Shown here piece after piece: positions 4,349 to 10,940 of a DNA stretch of 64,000 nucleotides (the first letter of the stretch is position 1; the number at the start of each line of letters is the position of its first letter). This DNA comes from Acidobacteriota bacterium (GTDB lineage Bacteria > Acidobacteriota > Terriglobia > Terriglobales > Acidobacteriaceae). Under the pieces are notes generated by a model, which was not told the origin of the DNA, ran no database searches, and saw nothing but the letters and a program-made list of their open reading frames with translations. The stretch lies in the NCBI GenBank assembly GCA_013289685.1, contig JABCZL010000010.1, positions 62,001-126,000 of the forward strand. Reading direction: 5' to 3'. Made by a program: the position numbers and the translations under genes.

Positions 4349-5004
4349 ATGTCTGTATTGTCCCATTGCGCGCGCGAGATGGGCAAACCCCGTGAGCCAA
4401 CTTCAGTTCCTTGCTCGCGATGGGAGGGTGCCGCGACCCCGGCGATTCTGACGGGATGCGTATCTCCACAATTTTTTTCTCTCCTATCCTCTAAGATCCT
4501 CATTCTCAATAAGTTACGCGCGCCGAGAGTCGCGCAAACAGGCAAAATATTGAGCCACAAGCACTTACGGCTAAAATATCCCGGAATAACGACTTAGGCC
4601 CCGGCAAAGAATTGCTGACGAAATCGATGGTGGAGAACTGGTTGAGACCGCGCTCGCGCATATGACAAGCTTGCGCTTTCCAGATTTCTCAGTAAAGGTT
4701 GTTCGTCACACGAATTGGGATTCTTTCTGTGGAAGGCTGTGGAAAACGATCTGAACCGCTAAGTTGATGTCAGAAAGTGGGGCCACAGCCCCGGCAGTAA
4801 GGTTAAGGCCACGTCGCGCACGCCCAGCTCGCAGGTAATCAGGAAGTAGTTACGTTCTTGCGGACCTGATTTCTATGCGTCGCCGCAATCGACGCGTCGC
4901 TGCCAGGCGCAGTAGAATTCGCCTTGATTGCGGAACCGACCAACGGCTGTCGCGGACGCCATTGCATGCAGCGGTCGGAATTCACATTTGTCAACAGAAC
5001 GATA
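4349..5004. other. Intergenic region before the Mrr-like gene
   Basis: About 650 bp without a believable coding frame. Base composition falls towards A+T across it, marking the left edge of the compositionally different segment at 5.0-7.0 kb. No repeat border, attachment site or tRNA was found that would show how the segment arrived. Confidence 0.5.
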
Positions 5005-5952
5005 ATGGCTACCAAGAAGAAAAACACTGGCATTCCCTATGAAAAGTTGGTGCAGGGAATTTTTCAAGCCATTCACGATCAAGAGGAAGTCGCAACCATA
5101 ACCGTTGAACAGAACAAGACTTTGAAGGGCAAGATATCCACACATCAGATTGATGTTTATTGGAAGTTTCAGACGGGTGGAATCGAATACGAAGTAATTG
5201 TCCAGGCGAAAGATTGGCGGAGCGCGGTTAAGCAAGGAGACCTTTTCCATTTCAAATGTGTTCTCGATGACTTGCCTAACCAGCCTCGCGGGATCTTCGT
5301 CACGCGCACTGGATACCAGCAGGGCGCTAAGGACTTTGCAGCGGCGCAAGGGATCATCCTGTACGAATTGGATGAGCCCCCACCGAAAAGGAACATAACC
5401 ATGACGGTGATGGGCTGGTCCAACGTGGCAGCGGAAATCCGATCCTTCAAAGTGCCCGCTCCTGATCCCGGTGGTGGAACCGTGGAGCACCGTGCAATGG
5501 GCTTGAAATGGACGATCTTTGAACCTCGTTCTTCGAACTTTGTAATCCATATCGATTCGACATGGTTCGCTAGTAATCCGGATACGGCGCATATCGACAG
5601 ATCGAGCCTATCGCTTCGACCGCTTCCGAATCGTGAAGTAATTTTCTACGACCAAGATCGCTCATCTATCGGCAACCTAGAAGCCCTGCTTCGGCAGGAG
5701 CTTAGCCTGATGAAAAGCGAAAAGCTAAACCAGAAGCATATCGATCACACCTTTGACACACCAACATTTCTCGGGCCGGAGGTCACGGGAGGCTTGTTCC
5801 TAAAGATCAAGAAAGTGACTTATGACTTGGAAATTGTGGTCACAGAAAGGCCGGCTCATTTCGATTTACCGGGATTCGTTAAGCTGGTTCTTCGCGAAAT
5901 TCCTTCCCGAAAAGAACGGAACTTCATCGCCCGCGAACCGCAATCCCCTTAA
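5005..5952 (+). CDS. Mrr-like restriction endonuclease-fold protein
   Basis: A 315-residue protein whose first 125 residues carry the PD-(D/E)xK nuclease core in the Mrr variant: E14 in Y-E-K-L-V, D50 (H-Q-I-D-V) and Q67-A-K69 (V-I-V-Q-A-K-D-W), followed by G-I-F-V-T-R-T-G-Y-Q-Q-G-A at 97-109, typical of the Mrr_cat family. The remaining 190 residues are not recognised. Mrr-type enzymes cut modified or foreign DNA; here no methyltransferase or specificity subunit is adjacent, which fits a type IV or stand-alone role. ATG at 5005 is chosen since it leads straight into the fold; a TTG-started extension of 27 residues has no conserved content. Codon use is more A+T-rich than in most neighbours, as expected of an acquired defence gene. 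Confidence 0.75.
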   Translation: MATKKKNTGIPYEKLVQGIFQAIHDQEEVATITVEQNKTLKGKISTHQIDVYWKFQTGGIEYEVIVQAKDWRSAVKQGDLFHFKCVLDDLPNQPRGIFVTRTGYQQGAKDFAAAQGIILYELDEPPPKRNITMTVMGWSNVAAEIRSFKVPAPDPGGGTVEHRAMGLKWTIFEPRSSNFVIHIDSTWFASNPDTAHIDRSSLSLRPLPNREVIFYDQDRSSIGNLEALLRQELSLMKSEKLNQKHIDHTFDTPTFLGPEVTGGLFLKIKKVTYDLEIVVTERPAHFDLPGFVKLVLREIPSRKERNFIAREPQSP

Positions 5953-6092: not shown

Positions 6093-6974
6093 TTATTTCA
6101 TGGTCTTAGCGGGTGGTTTCTTGGCCGACTGTTTCTTTGGCGAATGGAAATCTTGAGCATAACAATTTGGTTTTCGAGTGACCCATTCAATTCCACCACG
6201 CCGCACGACTACTACGTCAATCGGGCCGTGAACAAGAGGTTTGTCTTTGTCGTTCATGTTGTCGATGACGAACTGGACAGCCAACCTCACGAACTCTTTG
6301 TCGTAGGACAACTCTTTTCCGAATTTGTGAGGCTTGAGTTTTCCATACGCCTTGGATGCCCTTGAAGTCTCTGCGTTTATGAACTCTCCGACCAGTTCTC
6401 GGTTGTGAATTCCAGCCGCCCCGACTTGGCCCATCGATTCACTTGTTGGATTCAGAGAGAGTTGGGCTGGCGAAAGAGGCGACCCATCGGTAAAAACGAG
6501 GTCTTGCGAAAATACTATCGGGCTTTTGTTCGGGACAAAGTTGATGAATCCCCCTTGCACCAATACCCCGTCGGCACCTGTTAACGATTTCACGAATGAC
6601 GGCTTTTGTCCTCCGAACCAAACCATTGCACGCTTGCCCCATGCGATTGAAAGAGACTGCGTGTCACGATCTTCACTCGTTTTGTAAATCCCCCCAGCGG
6701 TCTGGATGGAATCCCAAGGAACCGCACCATCCACTGGAATTCGGGGACGCCCCGACGCGAAAAATACAGTGTCGTCGAATGATATGACCTTACAGGCATC
6801 GGAATTCGGCTTCTGTGTCAGGTCATCGAATTCGCGACTGTCGGCAGCAAGCACGACATAATCACCCTTTTCGGAGACTACCCAGACGATTGAAGTCCCG
6901 TGACACGCTTGGAGGAAAAGCCCCGAAAGGATCACCCATTTGAGCGCACGTCGCATGAGCTTAATGGATTTCAT
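6093..6974 (-). CDS. Exported proteasome-beta-like Ntn-hydrolase candidate
   Basis: A 293-residue protein. Residues 1-26 form a signal-peptide-like basic/hydrophobic segment ending Q-A-C-H-G, and the mature part would begin at T27: T-S-I-V-W-V-V-S-E-K-G-D-Y-V-V-L-A-A-D-S-R. This resembles the N-terminus of 20S proteasome beta subunits (G-T-T-T-x..., x-A-A-D-S-R). The triad can be laid out as T27 nucleophile, D45 (proteasome D17) and K62 in C-K-V-I (proteasome K33), with a Gly at 75 near the place of G47. The middle is divergent, P-I-D-V-V-V-V-R-R near 265 could be the last strand, and the tail is Lys/Pro-rich. What is seen is the motif series; the enzyme activity and the export are inferred. 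The Cys in L-Q-A-C could instead be a weak lipobox. It is convergent with the Mrr-like gene and equally A+T-rich. Hypothetical secreted protein is the fallback call. Confidence 0.5.
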   Translation of the reverse strand: MKSIKLMRRALKWVILSGLFLQACHGTSIVWVVSEKGDYVVLAADSREFDDLTQKPNSDACKVISFDDTVFFASGRPRIPVDGAVPWDSIQTAGGIYKTSEDRDTQSLSIAWGKRAMVWFGGQKPSFVKSLTGADGVLVQGGFINFVPNKSPIVFSQDLVFTDGSPLSPAQLSLNPTSESMGQVGAAGIHNRELVGEFINAETSRASKAYGKLKPHKFGKELSYDKEFVRLAVQFVIDNMNDKDKPLVHGPIDVVVVRRGGIEWVTRKPNCYAQDFHSPKKQSAKKPPAKTMK

Positions 6975-7153: not shown

Positions 7154-8005
7154 TCACCCACGTTCCCTGTTCTCGGTCGCCGCACGGAGGAGTATGGTCT
7201 GTCCGACCGCCAGGCGACCGATGCGAGTGACCGCGCCGTAGATTCCCGCGGTGTTCTGGTGTTCGCGAACCACCGCCTGCAGGATTTCTGGCGCCGGGCT
7301 GGCCGTGTCGGGATCAAGGTTCACCATCGAGCAGCGTTCGTCGCGCATGGTGACGGCGATGGCGGGGGCGTCGTCCCCCTCGCCGAAGGAGAGCACACCG
7401 CCCAGCCACTCGTCCTCCTGGAAGGGAGCGGGGCGCAGTAAACGAACCACAATATTCGGGCGGAATCGTCTTACGTCGAATCGTCTTACGTCGAATCCGG
7501 GCACGTCGGGGTCCCGGCCTGCGAGCCGTCCAATCTCGCGCACGGTGTCGGAGGCGATCACGGAGATGCTGGCTTCATCGAAGATGCCGTGCCTCAGGTG
7601 CATCATCTGCACGGGCGCCCCGTAGCGGCGCCCGACCTCCGCGGCCAAGTCCTCCCCAAAGACAGGCATCACTGCGCCATCGGGCGTGCGAATATGCGTG
7701 GGAAGGTGCGGGAGAAGGTCTCCCTGATCGCCATTTTGACGACCAGCGTCGTCGCGGCGGAGCGGAGCAAACAGGAGCAGGTCGGGAAGCTTGCTTGCGG
7801 TTAGCCACGGCATCCCGCTGCGGTCATTAATCTGCATCTCACTCTCAATCTCCATCTCCATCCGCATCTGCATCCGGCGGAATGCCAGGCGTCGGTCACC
7901 CTCGAGGCCGTACCAGCCCAGGTCGGCGACCTCGAGTCGTTCGCCGCCCATGGACTTCACGGGATATCGGAAGAGCGCCTCCACCTGTCCGATTTCTATG
8001 AGCAT
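7154..8005 (-). CDS. MOSC-domain protein
   Basis: A 283-residue protein with an N-terminal MOSC beta-barrel domain (V-x-A-L-F-R-Y-P-V-K-S-M at about 8-19, G-L-E-G-D-R at 33-38) and a C-terminal MOSC domain (about 140-275). The conserved Cys of the family lies near residue 225 in R-D-E-R-C-S-M-V-N-L-D-P. MOSC proteins handle molybdenum cofactor-bound sulfur or act as Mo-dependent N-hydroxylated-substrate reductases (YcbX/mARC type); nothing here decides which. An Arg/Met-rich insertion (R-R-M-Q-M-R-M-E-M-E...) near residue 43 looks like a local simple-sequence expansion. No molybdenum cofactor gene is adjacent. Confidence 0.85.
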   Translation of the reverse strand: MLIEIGQVEALFRYPVKSMGGERLEVADLGWYGLEGDRRLAFRRMQMRMEMEIESEMQINDRSGMPWLTASKLPDLLLFAPLRRDDAGRQNGDQGDLLPHLPTHIRTPDGAVMPVFGEDLAAEVGRRYGAPVQMMHLRHGIFDEASISVIASDTVREIGRLAGRDPDVPGFDVRRFDVRRFRPNIVVRLLRPAPFQEDEWLGGVLSFGEGDDAPAIAVTMRDERCSMVNLDPDTASPAPEILQAVVREHQNTAGIYGAVTRIGRLAVGQTILLRAATENRERG

Positions 8006-8051: not shown

Positions 8052-10940
8052 TTATTGCACCGTCTGCGTCACCGATGCCGAGCTCGGCGCAATGCTCGAG
8101 TCTCCGGAATAAGTTGCAGTGATCGTGGTTGTGCCCGCCGCCAGCGTAGACGTGGTGAATTCCGCTCTTCCGCCTTTGAGTTGCGCCGTTCCCAGCACCG
8201 TCGTCCCTGCCATGAACGTCACCGGGCCAGTCACGATGACCGTCGGCGAAGTGATTTTCGCCGTGAAGGTAACTCCCTGTCCGAGGGTTGATGGATTCGC
8301 GGACGAACTCAGCGTAGCTGAACTGGTGGCTTGCTGTATCACCTGGTTCAGCACGGCGGCGGTGCTGCTTGCGTTATTGGCGTCACCCTCGTACACCGCG
8401 GTTAGGGCATAGGAGTTGGCATTCTGGAGTGATCTGGTCATCGTGGCTACACCGCTGGCGTTGATCATGGCGGCATCGATGATTTGGCCACCCCACATGA
8501 GGTTCACTTTCCCGGTTGGCGGACTGAGGAATCCGTCGGGGCTGGTCACTGTCGCAGTCCAGGTCACGGACTGCCCGTAAATGGAGGGGCTCAGGCTTGA
8601 GCTCAAGGATGTCGTCGTCGGGTCGCCGGTGACTACTTGGGTGATGACGTTGGAGTAGCTCGGCAAATCGCCGCTTCCACTCCCAGGAAATTGCGCCTTG
8701 ATTTTATGGGTTCTGGCGGTAAGCGACGTATCGGTAAAGGTTGCAACGCAGGAGTTGATATTGAGGGGCGCAGTCCCGATGACGGTGTTGCCGTCGTAAA
8801 AGGTGATCTGCTCAAAACAAACCCCTTGCGGGATGCCGTTGCACAGTCCATAGGCAAACACGGTTGCCGAAAAGATGGCTTGCTGGCCAACTACAGTCGG
8901 CGATCCCGAGGACGTGAGCGTCGTGGTTGACGGGCACCCTCCCCCGGCCGACGCAGTTTTCACCTGGCGAGGAAGCTTTCCGATCTCCTCGGTCAGCGTG
9001 CCCTGCGAACTGACGGTCTGGGTCACCGATGCCGAGCTCTGGGCAATGTTCGAGCCGCCATAATACGTTGCTGTAACCGTGGTTGATCCCGCCGACAGAG
9101 TGGAGGTGGTGAACTTCGCCTTCCCGCCGCTGAGTTGCGCCGTTCCCAGCACCGTCTTTCCAATCGCGAAGGTAACGGGGCCAGTTAGCTTGGCCGTCGG
9201 CGACGCAATCGTAGCTGTGAAGGTCACCGCCTGACCTGATGTCGAGGGATTCGGCGATGAAGTGAGCGTAGCGGAGGTAGTGGCTTGGGTGACTACCTGG
9301 TTCACTACCGGGGAGGTGCTGCCCAAGTTGCTCGCGTCTCCTCCATACGCCGCCTTCAGTGAAGAGAGGCCGGCGTTCAGGTTAGACCGGGCCAAAGTGG
9401 CCACACCGTTACTGTCCAAGATCGCCGTTCCTATGGTCTTGCTTCCAGAAGTGAAGATTATTTTCCCCGTTGGCGGGACCGAACTGAAGCCCGAATTCAG
9501 GACTCTCGCGGTCCAGGTTACGTCCTGCCCATAGACACTCGGGTTTATGCTCGAGGTGAGGGAAGTGGAAGTAGGGTACGCAAAAGGAACGGTCTGATTG
9601 AGAAGCACAGTCAGGGAGTTAGTAAAGAAGTGACCGACAACTACGTCCGGTTTGCCGTCCCCGTTCAGATCTGCGACCGCCACGAACCGGGCGCTGCTCA
9701 AGCCGGAATCATATAGCACGGCCGGGGTGAATCCGTGACCAGCACCGACCAGCACGCCTAGAGAACCATCTTCCGAAACGCACGTCGTGGTACAGTTACC
9801 GACCAGCAGATCAGGATGACCATCGCCGTTGACGTCCGCAACCGCCACTGAGAACACGAAGCGTCCTCCAGTATAGTAACTGGCTCCCTGCGTGAAGGTC
9901 CCGTCACCGTTGCCTAACAACACACCAACTTTGTCGCGAGGGTTCCCGTTGCCGCCCACGGCTACTACATCGAGTTTGCCATCCTGGTTGATATCCGCGA
10001 CCGCCAACCCTTGTGCTGTGAGAACACCCGGGACCCGATAGCTGACCGGCGGCTGAAAGGAGCCGTCGCCATTCCCTAACAAGACATCCATCACCGCCTC
10101 GAGGTTGTTACTTCCGCCGGGGATCACTAGCAAATCAGGACGCCCGTCACCATTTACGTCCGCGACCGACATGGCGACTGCACTCTGTTCCCAGCGACTA
10201 GGGACAGATTGCACAGTGCCATCGCCGTTGCCCAAGAACACAGCCACTCCTCCGCTCGCATTCGCCACCAGCACGTCGAGCTTCCCATCAAGGTTCAAAT
10301 CTGCTACGGCGACCTGCATCGCACCGACTCCACCCGAGTCGTACAAAGTTGGTTTTTGAAAAGTGCCATCCCCGTTTCCTAGAAAGATGGCAAGCACTCC
10401 GTTCGCCGTGGTTGGGCAGAACGCTTGCCCGAGGAAAGCGCCACAATTCGCCACCACCAGATCAGGCTTCCCATCGCGGTTCAAGTCGGCGACGACTACG
10501 GACGTCGGAAATCCGCCTCCTGAATCGAATGTCCTCGCGTTCTGGAAGGTTCCGTCCCCATTGCCGAGCAGCACACTGACCAGGCCCTCACCGTTCCGTC
10601 CGCCGAGTCCGCTCACGGCTATCAGATCGGGCTTGCCGTCGCCGTTAACATCTGCGACGGCTACCGAGGATGACAGGCCGCCGCCGATCGCGTATGTCAC
10701 CGGTGGCAGAAAGACAGCGCTGCCGGTGGCGAGCGTGAAATGGCCAGTGGACGACACTCTACCTTCTTGTGTTACCGAAGCCGCGAGATGATTGAAGGAC
10801 GCACTTCCCCCAACCGGTTGCTGGGCAGGACTCGCTAAGGCGAACAGGAGGGTGAGCGCTGCGACAAACAGGCCGCAGGCACCGAGAACGCGAACCTTCA
10901 TTCTGAGTGAGAACTGGCTGAGTGAGAGCTGTCGGGGCAT
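8052..10940 (-). CDS. Secreted VCBS/FG-GAP repeat protein with Ig-like domains
   Basis: A 962-residue exported protein. After a signal peptide (hydrophobic G-L-F-V-A-A-L-T-L-L-F-A, cut near S-P-A-Q-Q) residues of about 75-440 form VCBS/FG-GAP repeats, each with the Ca-binding pattern A-D-V-N-G-D-G-K-P-D-L (at least seven copies, with variants such as A-D-L-N-L-D-G-K-L-D). The rest is a series of Ig-like beta-sandwich repeats (T-S-L-x-S-S-x-x-P-S-x-x-G-Q-x-V-T-F-T-A and G-T-A-x-L), two of them nearly identical. Repeats of this sort build integrin-like propellers and stalks for adhesion or matrix binding. The start at 10940 has GGAG 6 nt upstream. There is no anchor or protease motif. Function beyond surface/secreted is unknown. 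Confidence 0.88.
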   Translation of the reverse strand: MPRQLSLSQFSLRMKVRVLGACGLFVAALTLLFALASPAQQPVGGSASFNHLAASVTQEGRVSSTGHFTLATGSAVFLPPVTYAIGGGLSSSVAVADVNGDGKPDLIAVSGLGGRNGEGLVSVLLGNGDGTFQNARTFDSGGGFPTSVVVADLNRDGKPDLVVANCGAFLGQAFCPTTANGVLAIFLGNGDGTFQKPTLYDSGGVGAMQVAVADLNLDGKLDVLVANASGGVAVFLGNGDGTVQSVPSRWEQSAVAMSVADVNGDGRPDLLVIPGGSNNLEAVMDVLLGNGDGSFQPPVSYRVPGVLTAQGLAVADINQDGKLDVVAVGGNGNPRDKVGVLLGNGDGTFTQGASYYTGGRFVFSVAVADVNGDGHPDLLVGNCTTTCVSEDGSLGVLVGAGHGFTPAVLYDSGLSSARFVAVADLNGDGKPDVVVGHFFTNSLTVLLNQTVPFAYPTSTSLTSSINPSVYGQDVTWTARVLNSGFSSVPPTGKIIFTSGSKTIGTAILDSNGVATLARSNLNAGLSSLKAAYGGDASNLGSTSPVVNQVVTQATTSATLTSSPNPSTSGQAVTFTATIASPTAKLTGPVTFAIGKTVLGTAQLSGGKAKFTTSTLSAGSTTVTATYYGGSNIAQSSASVTQTVSSQGTLTEEIGKLPRQVKTASAGGGCPSTTTLTSSGSPTVVGQQAIFSATVFAYGLCNGIPQGVCFEQITFYDGNTVIGTAPLNINSCVATFTDTSLTARTHKIKAQFPGSGSGDLPSYSNVITQVVTGDPTTTSLSSSLSPSIYGQSVTWTATVTSPDGFLSPPTGKVNLMWGGQIIDAAMINASGVATMTRSLQNANSYALTAVYEGDANNASSTAAVLNQVIQQATSSATLSSSANPSTLGQGVTFTAKITSPTVIVTGPVTFMAGTTVLGTAQLKGGRAEFTTSTLAAGTTTITATYSGDSSIAPSSASVTQTVQ

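Follow-up and report, generated by a model that had tools for sequence, protein, structure and literature searches.

The proteasome homologs characterized so far (20S, HslV, Anbu, and BPH) are cytoplasmic or nuclear, and the proteasome and HslV need ATPases for folded substrates. We analyzed a 64,000-nucleotide stretch of DNA from an Acidobacteriota bacterium (the window) in which one gene appears to encode a proteasome-like protein behind an export signal. This raises the question of whether a proteasome-type enzyme works outside the cytoplasm and how its catalytic threonine would be released there. What we could demonstrate is the homology, the residue conservation, the leader pattern, and the predicted fold. 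We consider it likely that the gene encodes an exported Ntn hydrolase with the proteasome-beta fold and the first proteasome triad, in which Thr27 is freed by processing; export, cleavage, the disulfide, and activity are inferred.

The gene and its surroundings

Table 1. Coordinates of the proteasome-like gene, its parts, and its neighbors in the window
Feature	Position	Strand	Basis
Mrr-like nuclease gene (PF04471, 4.3e-8), low G+C, convergent with the proteasome-like gene	4924-5952	+	
Gene for the proteasome-like protein, putatively exported, 293 aa, ATG start	6093-6974	-	ORF and homologs
Leader (residues 1-26) with a basic n-region and a hydrophobic core, end QACHG	6897-6974	-	Sequence
LQAC, lipobox-like, residues 21-24, possible lipoprotein signal	6903-6914	-	Pattern match
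Thr27, proposed N-terminal nucleophile (proteasome Thr1)	6894-6896	-	Family alignment and alignment of model residue 1
Asp45 (proteasome Asp17)	6840-6842	-	16/16 and 52/52
Cys61, proposed disulfide partner of Cys271	6792-6794	-	16/16 and 41/52
Lys62 (proteasome Lys33, general base)	6789-6791	-	16/16 and 52/52
Gly75 (proteasome Gly47, oxyanion hole)	6750-6752	-	16/16 and 44/52
Val248, first residue of the family V-G-P-P-I-D motif, proteasome Ser169 position	6231-6233	-	HMMER alignment
Cys271, proposed disulfide partner of Cys61	6162-6164	-	15/16
Lys-rich C-terminal tail, residues 277-293	6096-6146	-	Alignment
MOSC protein gene, upstream of the proteasome-like gene	7154-8005	-	
FG-GAP/Ig-like protein gene, upstream of the proteasome-like gene	8052-10940	-	

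The best 11-residue stretch of the leader has a Kyte-Doolittle mean of 2.05, and the net charge ahead of the core is +5. After the leader, the window protein reads T27-S-I-V-W, A-A-D45-S-R, C61-K62, and A-S-G75. We recomputed the offsets from T27 and obtained 0, 18, 35, and 48, the values given in an earlier note made from this sequence alone. That note had attributed the departure from proteasome spacing to a short insertion. Consistently with this, the Thr-Asp offset is 16, the proteasome value, in 14 of the 16 aligned family members, and the window protein thus carries a 2-residue insertion before D45. Most of the 15 relatives in the alignment lack its Lys-rich tail or have a shorter one.

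The same note had placed the gene in a low-G+C pair with the adjoining nuclease gene. We found that both genes are indeed low in G+C (0.503 for the proteasome-like gene and 0.497 for the nuclease gene, against 0.600 for the window), and perhaps they belong to the same acquired patch. A functional pair, for example a defense module, would fit this shared composition and the PF04471 match of the nuclease, but we give it almost no weight. Neither protein matched PADLOC, and neither did two relatives that we also submitted. The pairing itself looks incidental, because the genes are convergent and no nuclease was seen in the ORF lists of short stretches around three relatives (L002 to L004), which were inspected by eye without a family search.

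Of the six window genes, the MOSC gene alone was matched in three congener stretches. We saw no conserved partner gene across the family, with neighbors inspected at some loci only. A telling gene context was likewise absent for the 22 new homologs of Fuchs et al. (2021), in the part of that article available to us (PMC8665760). At three loci of a Vicinamibacterales-type subgroup where the next ORF was visible, a same-strand gene with PAS and response-regulator-receiver regions lies downstream of the putatively exported gene (L016, 2558-4213; L018, 5690-7369; L020, 310-1842).

According to the earlier note, the window holds no second proteasome gene, and this agrees with our searches of the genome. 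Its three PF00227 matches (E ≤ 1) are on contigs C4 and C16, while the window lies on contig C10, where the window gene was the sole match to the 16-row family profile. An ORF on C4 (L021, 1477-2019; G000:C4) is a normal HslV, with 92.6 bits to PF00227 and 285 bits to the NCBIfam HslV model. Since the genome has its own HslV, the exported protein is not an HslV replacement. Also on C4 is a 336-aa ORF with the pattern MTITVGF...VLGADS (L023, 1423-2433), which matched PF00227 at E 0.017 and archaeal beta at E 8.7e-5; judged by these matches, it is a different, weakly matching proteasome-like protein. The genome further holds a second member with an export-type leader (L013, 1444-2169; G000:C19:26223-26942), which reads QNSFRHG/TSIAI, the slash marking the boundary before the nucleophile. 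Immediately upstream of it is an ORF of 395 aa that probably has membrane segments, and a membrane-type ORF is likewise immediately upstream of L003; neither ORF had a Pfam match.

Catalytic residues and predicted fold

On its own, the window protein had no match in Pfam, NCBIfam, or PDB sequences. Family members brought the relationship into view. We found that 5 of the 16 aligned members matched PF00227 at their N-termini (best E, 7.3e-4), all below the gathering cutoff of 22.4 bits (best, 19.7 bits), and that no other Pfam family was matched by more than 1 of the 16. Searching PDB sequences with the 16-row profile gave 69 matches at E ≤ 1, the best at 7.3e-4. Among the 60 matches listed, 59 were proteasome, HslV, or BPH proteins and 1 was TnsC, and only one had an E value below 1e-3. 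A 13-row family profile also picked up five genes in other genomes that NCBIfam identifies as HslV, and 1 of the 16 members matched phrog_1040, "peptidase HslV family" (9.5e-4). In profile-profile comparison with four HslV sequences, the probability was 87.5 for the 16-row profile and a weak 26.9 for the 4-row close subfamily. The NCBIfam HslV models did not match the window protein, and 1 of 10 relatives matched them weakly (17.9 and 14.4 bits against cutoffs of 137 and 157.75).

We modeled the mature regions of the window protein and of a relative (L017) with AlphaFold2, both from the same six sequences. The L017 model (pLDDT, 79.6; pTM, 0.81) aligned with mouse 20S chain 3unb_4 over 170 residues (Z, 15.0; rmsd, 3.4), with model residues 1 to 224 placed on chain residues 1 to 191. 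The window protein model is of low confidence (pLDDT, 56.1; pTM, 0.61); its matches included bacterial 20S chain 5lzp_C (Z, 14.4; rmsd, 3.2; 184 aligned) and Anbu chain 5nyw_C (Z, 13.9). In both models the strands and helices follow the proteasome order, and residue 1 of either one aligns with the first residue of many of the proteasome chains listed. The earlier note had inferred an Ntn fold from motifs and proposed structure prediction as a check. The Ntn order of the models and their proteasome matches from residue 1 bear it out, with the reservation that the window model is weak. As far as predicted models can tell, the fold is the Ntn fold of proteasome type.

In the 16 aligned members, D45, S46, C61, K62, G75, and W264 are invariant, and the T27 position holds Thr in 15 and Ser in 1. 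Conservation in this alignment indicates a catalytic-type pattern beyond what chance would give. We extended the count to all loci. From 92 ORF matches, 63 remained after removal of duplicates, and 52 family ORFs were kept after we left out five HslV ORFs and several fragments or misaligned pieces (the second piece of L074, two pieces of L079, and L080, L096, and L100). None of the family counts or association tests is corrected for relatedness. The equivalents of Asp17 and Lys33 are each present in all 52 ORFs, of which 46 have a Thr nucleophile and 6 a Ser. The alignment test proposed in the earlier note was therefore passed, T27 (or Ser), D45, and K62 being kept across the family. Gly75, the equivalent of the oxyanion residue Gly47, is kept in 44 ORFs; the 8 exceptions are four leaderless rows and four rows with leaders, of which one has a gap and one is truncated. 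These positions correspond to the Lys33-Asp17-Thr1 triad described for the 20S proteasome, and a Thr1Ser yeast proteasome is active, though with lower efficiency, according to the portion of the source available (PMC4792962).

The second proteasome triad, Ser129-Asp166-Ser169, does not appear to be kept. This is judged from the Ser169 position, which we assigned from the HMMER alignment and which holds Val in 41 rows, Ile in 7, Leu in 1, and a gap in 3; for Ser129 and Asp166 we obtained no firm assignment. A hydrophobic residue here is one reason to ask if the protein uses the proteasome fold for something other than peptide hydrolysis, as an amidase, acylase, or protein ligase acting on a specific extracytoplasmic substrate. 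The sporadic distribution of the family (37 of 298 genomes in one search, 14 of 193 in another) points the same way, and the fold is known to host connectase, a protein ligase that is not a peptidase, in the accessible part of Fuchs et al. (PMC8665760). Against this stands the intact Thr/Lys/Asp triad, and there is no substrate evidence either way. We regard such a role as a genuine possibility, although on balance a doubtful one. The mature enzyme, as we picture it, would hydrolyze amide bonds, those of peptides or others, through its Thr1/Lys33/Asp17 triad, with Lys33 as the base. A peptide or protein substrate is a guess, and so is the formation of a ring.

Leader, cysteine pair, and release of the threonine

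We scored a leader as hydrophobic when its best 11-residue hydropathy was at least 1.7. By this measure, 44 of the 52 ORFs have a hydrophobic leader ending just ahead of the nucleophile, compared with 132 of 704 control windows of the same size taken from mature parts. The threshold alone is thus unspecific, as those 132 mature windows also pass it. At position -1, the 44 leaders have Ala in 21, Gly in 19, Ser in 2, Gln in 1, and Cys in 1. The Ala plus Gly fraction is 0.91 there, whereas from -2 back to -15 it lies between 0.05 and 0.36. The claim of an export signal, which the earlier note had based on a single protein, is therefore supported by the leader pattern of a whole family. From sequence alone, and without localization data, the family protein looks exported.

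The leader is accompanied by a pair of cysteines. In the 49 ORFs that remain when the truncated L074, L075, and L079 are set aside, Cys61 and Cys271 are both present in 37 and both absent in 8, with Cys61 alone in 1 and Cys271 alone in 3 (P = 3e-6, uncorrected for relatedness). Cys61 is found in 39 of 44 ORFs with a leader and in 2 of 8 without one (P = 5e-4, likewise uncorrected), and the pair, as read from these counts, goes with the leader. The simple reading is a Cys61-Cys271 disulfide, inferred without a measured distance, which would stabilize the mature enzyme. The two ORFs with Cys61 but no hydrophobic leader (L008 and L012, both in genome G529) go against this pattern; they have Gly before the Thr and perhaps represent a return to the cytoplasm.

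The eight ORFs without a hydrophobic leader, five of which start Met-Thr or Met-Ser, allow another interpretation, namely, that the leader is a remnant or an uncleaved anchor on a cytoplasmic enzyme or an inactive paralogue. We think this very unlikely. The leader is kept in 44 of 52 ORFs despite strong divergence, Ala or Gly occupies -1 in 40 of the 44, the Asp and Lys are invariant, and the Cys pair tracks the leader. Under the export reading that we prefer, the precursor would leave the cytoplasm by means of a cleavable signal peptide, and the catalytic Thr27 would then become the free N-terminus.

The residue at -1 divides the leaders into two main classes that differ in other respects. 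In the Ala class, position -3 is Val, Leu, Ala, Cys, or Gly in 21 of 21. The median distance from the end of the hydrophobic core to the Thr is 6 residues in the Ala class and 11 in the Gly class (P = 0.0035), and a small residue followed by Gln or Glu occurs upstream in 14 of 19 Gly-class leaders but in only 2 of 21 of the Ala class (P = 6e-5). This looks like two activation routes within one family, with cleavage inferred in both: a signal peptidase cut exactly before the Thr, or a short Gly-ended propeptide that removes itself. In the Ala class (21 of 44), signal peptidase would itself activate the enzyme, because its site directly abuts the Thr. In the Gly class, which has 19 of the 44 leaders and takes in the window protein, a short Gly-ended propeptide would be left after export. 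It would probably be removed in the manner of beta subunits, by attack of the Thr on its bond to the Gly. In those subunits, Thr1 attacks the carbonyl of Gly(-1), and position -2 is His in eukaryotic beta5, as described in the section of the source that was available (PMC4792962). We asked whether His(-2) distinguishes the Gly class and rejected this: it is not diagnostic because it is present in both classes (9 of 19 Gly and 6 of 21 Ala; P = 0.33).

The window protein (CHG/T) is of the Gly type. By eye, its hydrophobic core ends near CHG, and thus three routes stay open as alternatives: signal peptidase cleavage after Gly26, signal peptidase cleavage after Ala23 followed by self-cleavage, and lipoprotein processing at Cys24. 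Self-cleavage after Gly26 is plausible and unproven. On the third route, the protein would be lipid anchored through Cys24 of the LQAC sequence, and a self-cut between Gly26 and Thr27 would either release it from the membrane or not take place. LQAC fits a lipobox pattern, and 5 of 52 leaders have such a motif (the window gene [L001], L068, L069, L070, and L083). However, the other 47 lack it, a Gln at -2 is unusual, and retention of Cys24 would keep the conserved Thr from being the N-terminal residue. We consider lipid anchoring unlikely, without dismissing it, and retain an exported enzyme with a freed Thr27 as the preferred reading.

A tree of 54 rows (49 family ORFs and five HslV sequences, with the truncated L074, L075, and L079 left out) was weak. 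Only 17 of 51 inner branches were starred, the bootstrap had not settled, and the window protein sat on a long branch. Because the tree is poorly resolved, we make no claim of a single origin for export. The Ala and Gly classes are intermixed on it, and the well-supported branches force at least three changes of the Ala label and at least two of the Gly label. For example, L083 (ANG/T) and L084 (VHA/T) are sisters at 100/99.

Distribution and comparison with known systems

Within the order, an initial search gave matches in 4 of 298 genomes, the window genome and three relatives. Across the phylum, a four-sequence profile matched 7 of 396 genomes and the 13-row profile 20 of 396. With the 16-row profile, 37 of the 298 genomes of the order were matched, while 16 of the 24 same-genus genomes had no match, and a profile search in the class of another member matched 14 of 193. 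The 20/396, 37/298, and 14/193 counts comprise all matches at E ≤ 0.001 and thus include HslV genes, leaderless genes, and remoter proteasome-like genes. By these matches, the family is divergent and patchily distributed in what we infer to be Acidobacteriota. A scan of a genome collection with two peptide patterns gave six loci, all labeled Acidobacteria, Acidobacteriota, or Vicinamibacterales. Absence from other phyla is not demonstrated, because both patterns were narrow and other phyla were barely sampled. Neither plasmids nor phages gave a match for the window protein (E ≤ 1) or for L015 (E ≤ 0.1), plasmids gave none for L017 (E ≤ 0.1), and three scans of viral contigs gave no relative.

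Three other loci (L038, L097, and L098) form a leaderless proteasome-like group with long frames (434 to 549 aa from stop to stop), a common start of TAE[IV]A..LN...ALAADSA, and an end of V-G..P..W. They may be another undescribed subfamily.

The exported proteasome-like family is seemingly undescribed. A 2023 article by Coluccia and Besaury reportedly names a "secreted proteasome repertoire" of Acidobacteria in its title; secreted proteases may well be meant, and an earlier mention of the exported form is not excluded. The main text of Fuchs et al. (2021), so far as it was available, does not mention export, secretion, or Acidobacteria, and overlap with one of its subfamilies is not excluded (PMC8665760). 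At the level of text terms, the available portions of the Anbu (PMC5666114) and BPH papers contain no export-related wording. We rate the exported form as new because these three sources, to the extent covered, carry no report of export. Bacterial threonine peptidases do appear in a survey of secreted peptidases, and the word proteasome is missing from its main text as available (PMC6411800).

The data are also compatible with a more far-reaching proposal: that in Acidobacteriota one branch of the proteasome lineage came to work outside the cytoplasm, that in part of the family signal peptidase took over the activating cut, which beta subunits perform on themselves and Anbu leaves to methionine aminopeptidase, that relatives switched routes, and that the product is an ATP-independent, disulfide-held extracytoplasmic Thr hydrolase. 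We give this proposal as a whole somewhat better than an even chance. ATP-free action is proposed because the enzyme would work outside the cytoplasm. Such a branch raises the questions of what role it has without ATP and if a ring is still formed. It would also be a natural experiment on the freeing of a catalytic Thr, with two routes and apparently more than one switch within one family.

BPH and the 22 homologs of Fuchs et al. (2021) resemble the family in that they are prokaryotic, proteasome-like, and divergent and share its core residues, and they differ in that no exported one is reported in the part of that article available. Within the same limits, propeptides are described there in most beta and HslV subunits and in no other homolog (PMC8665760). 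Anbu shares the fold and the Thr nucleophile. It lacks a propeptide, and the proposed way of exposing its Thr is removal of the start Met by methionine aminopeptidase, as stated in the accessible part of its description (PMC5666114); signal peptidase or self-cleavage is proposed for our family instead. HslV has the same triad and is detected by the family profile, and the five HslV genes so detected have HG or HA before the Thr, whereas the HslV of the window genome has RS/T rather than HG/T. Unlike the family, the HslV ORFs in our set are 178 to 187 aa long, lack a signal peptide, and score 268 to 287 bits with NCBIfam, far above the HslV cutoffs.

Penicillin G acylase and gamma-glutamyltranspeptidase are also exported Ntn hydrolases whose nucleophile is freed by processing, and they belong to other branches of the superfamily. 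They were absent from the family searches and from the fold matches listed, which does not exclude a relation. The 20S beta subunit (PF00227) is like the family in its fold, as predicted, in the equivalents of Thr1, Asp17, Lys33, and Gly47, and in the Gly before the Thr that part of the family has. It is unlike the family in that the latter has an export leader, a Cys pair, and Val, Ile, or Leu at the Ser169 position and scores below the PF00227 cutoff.
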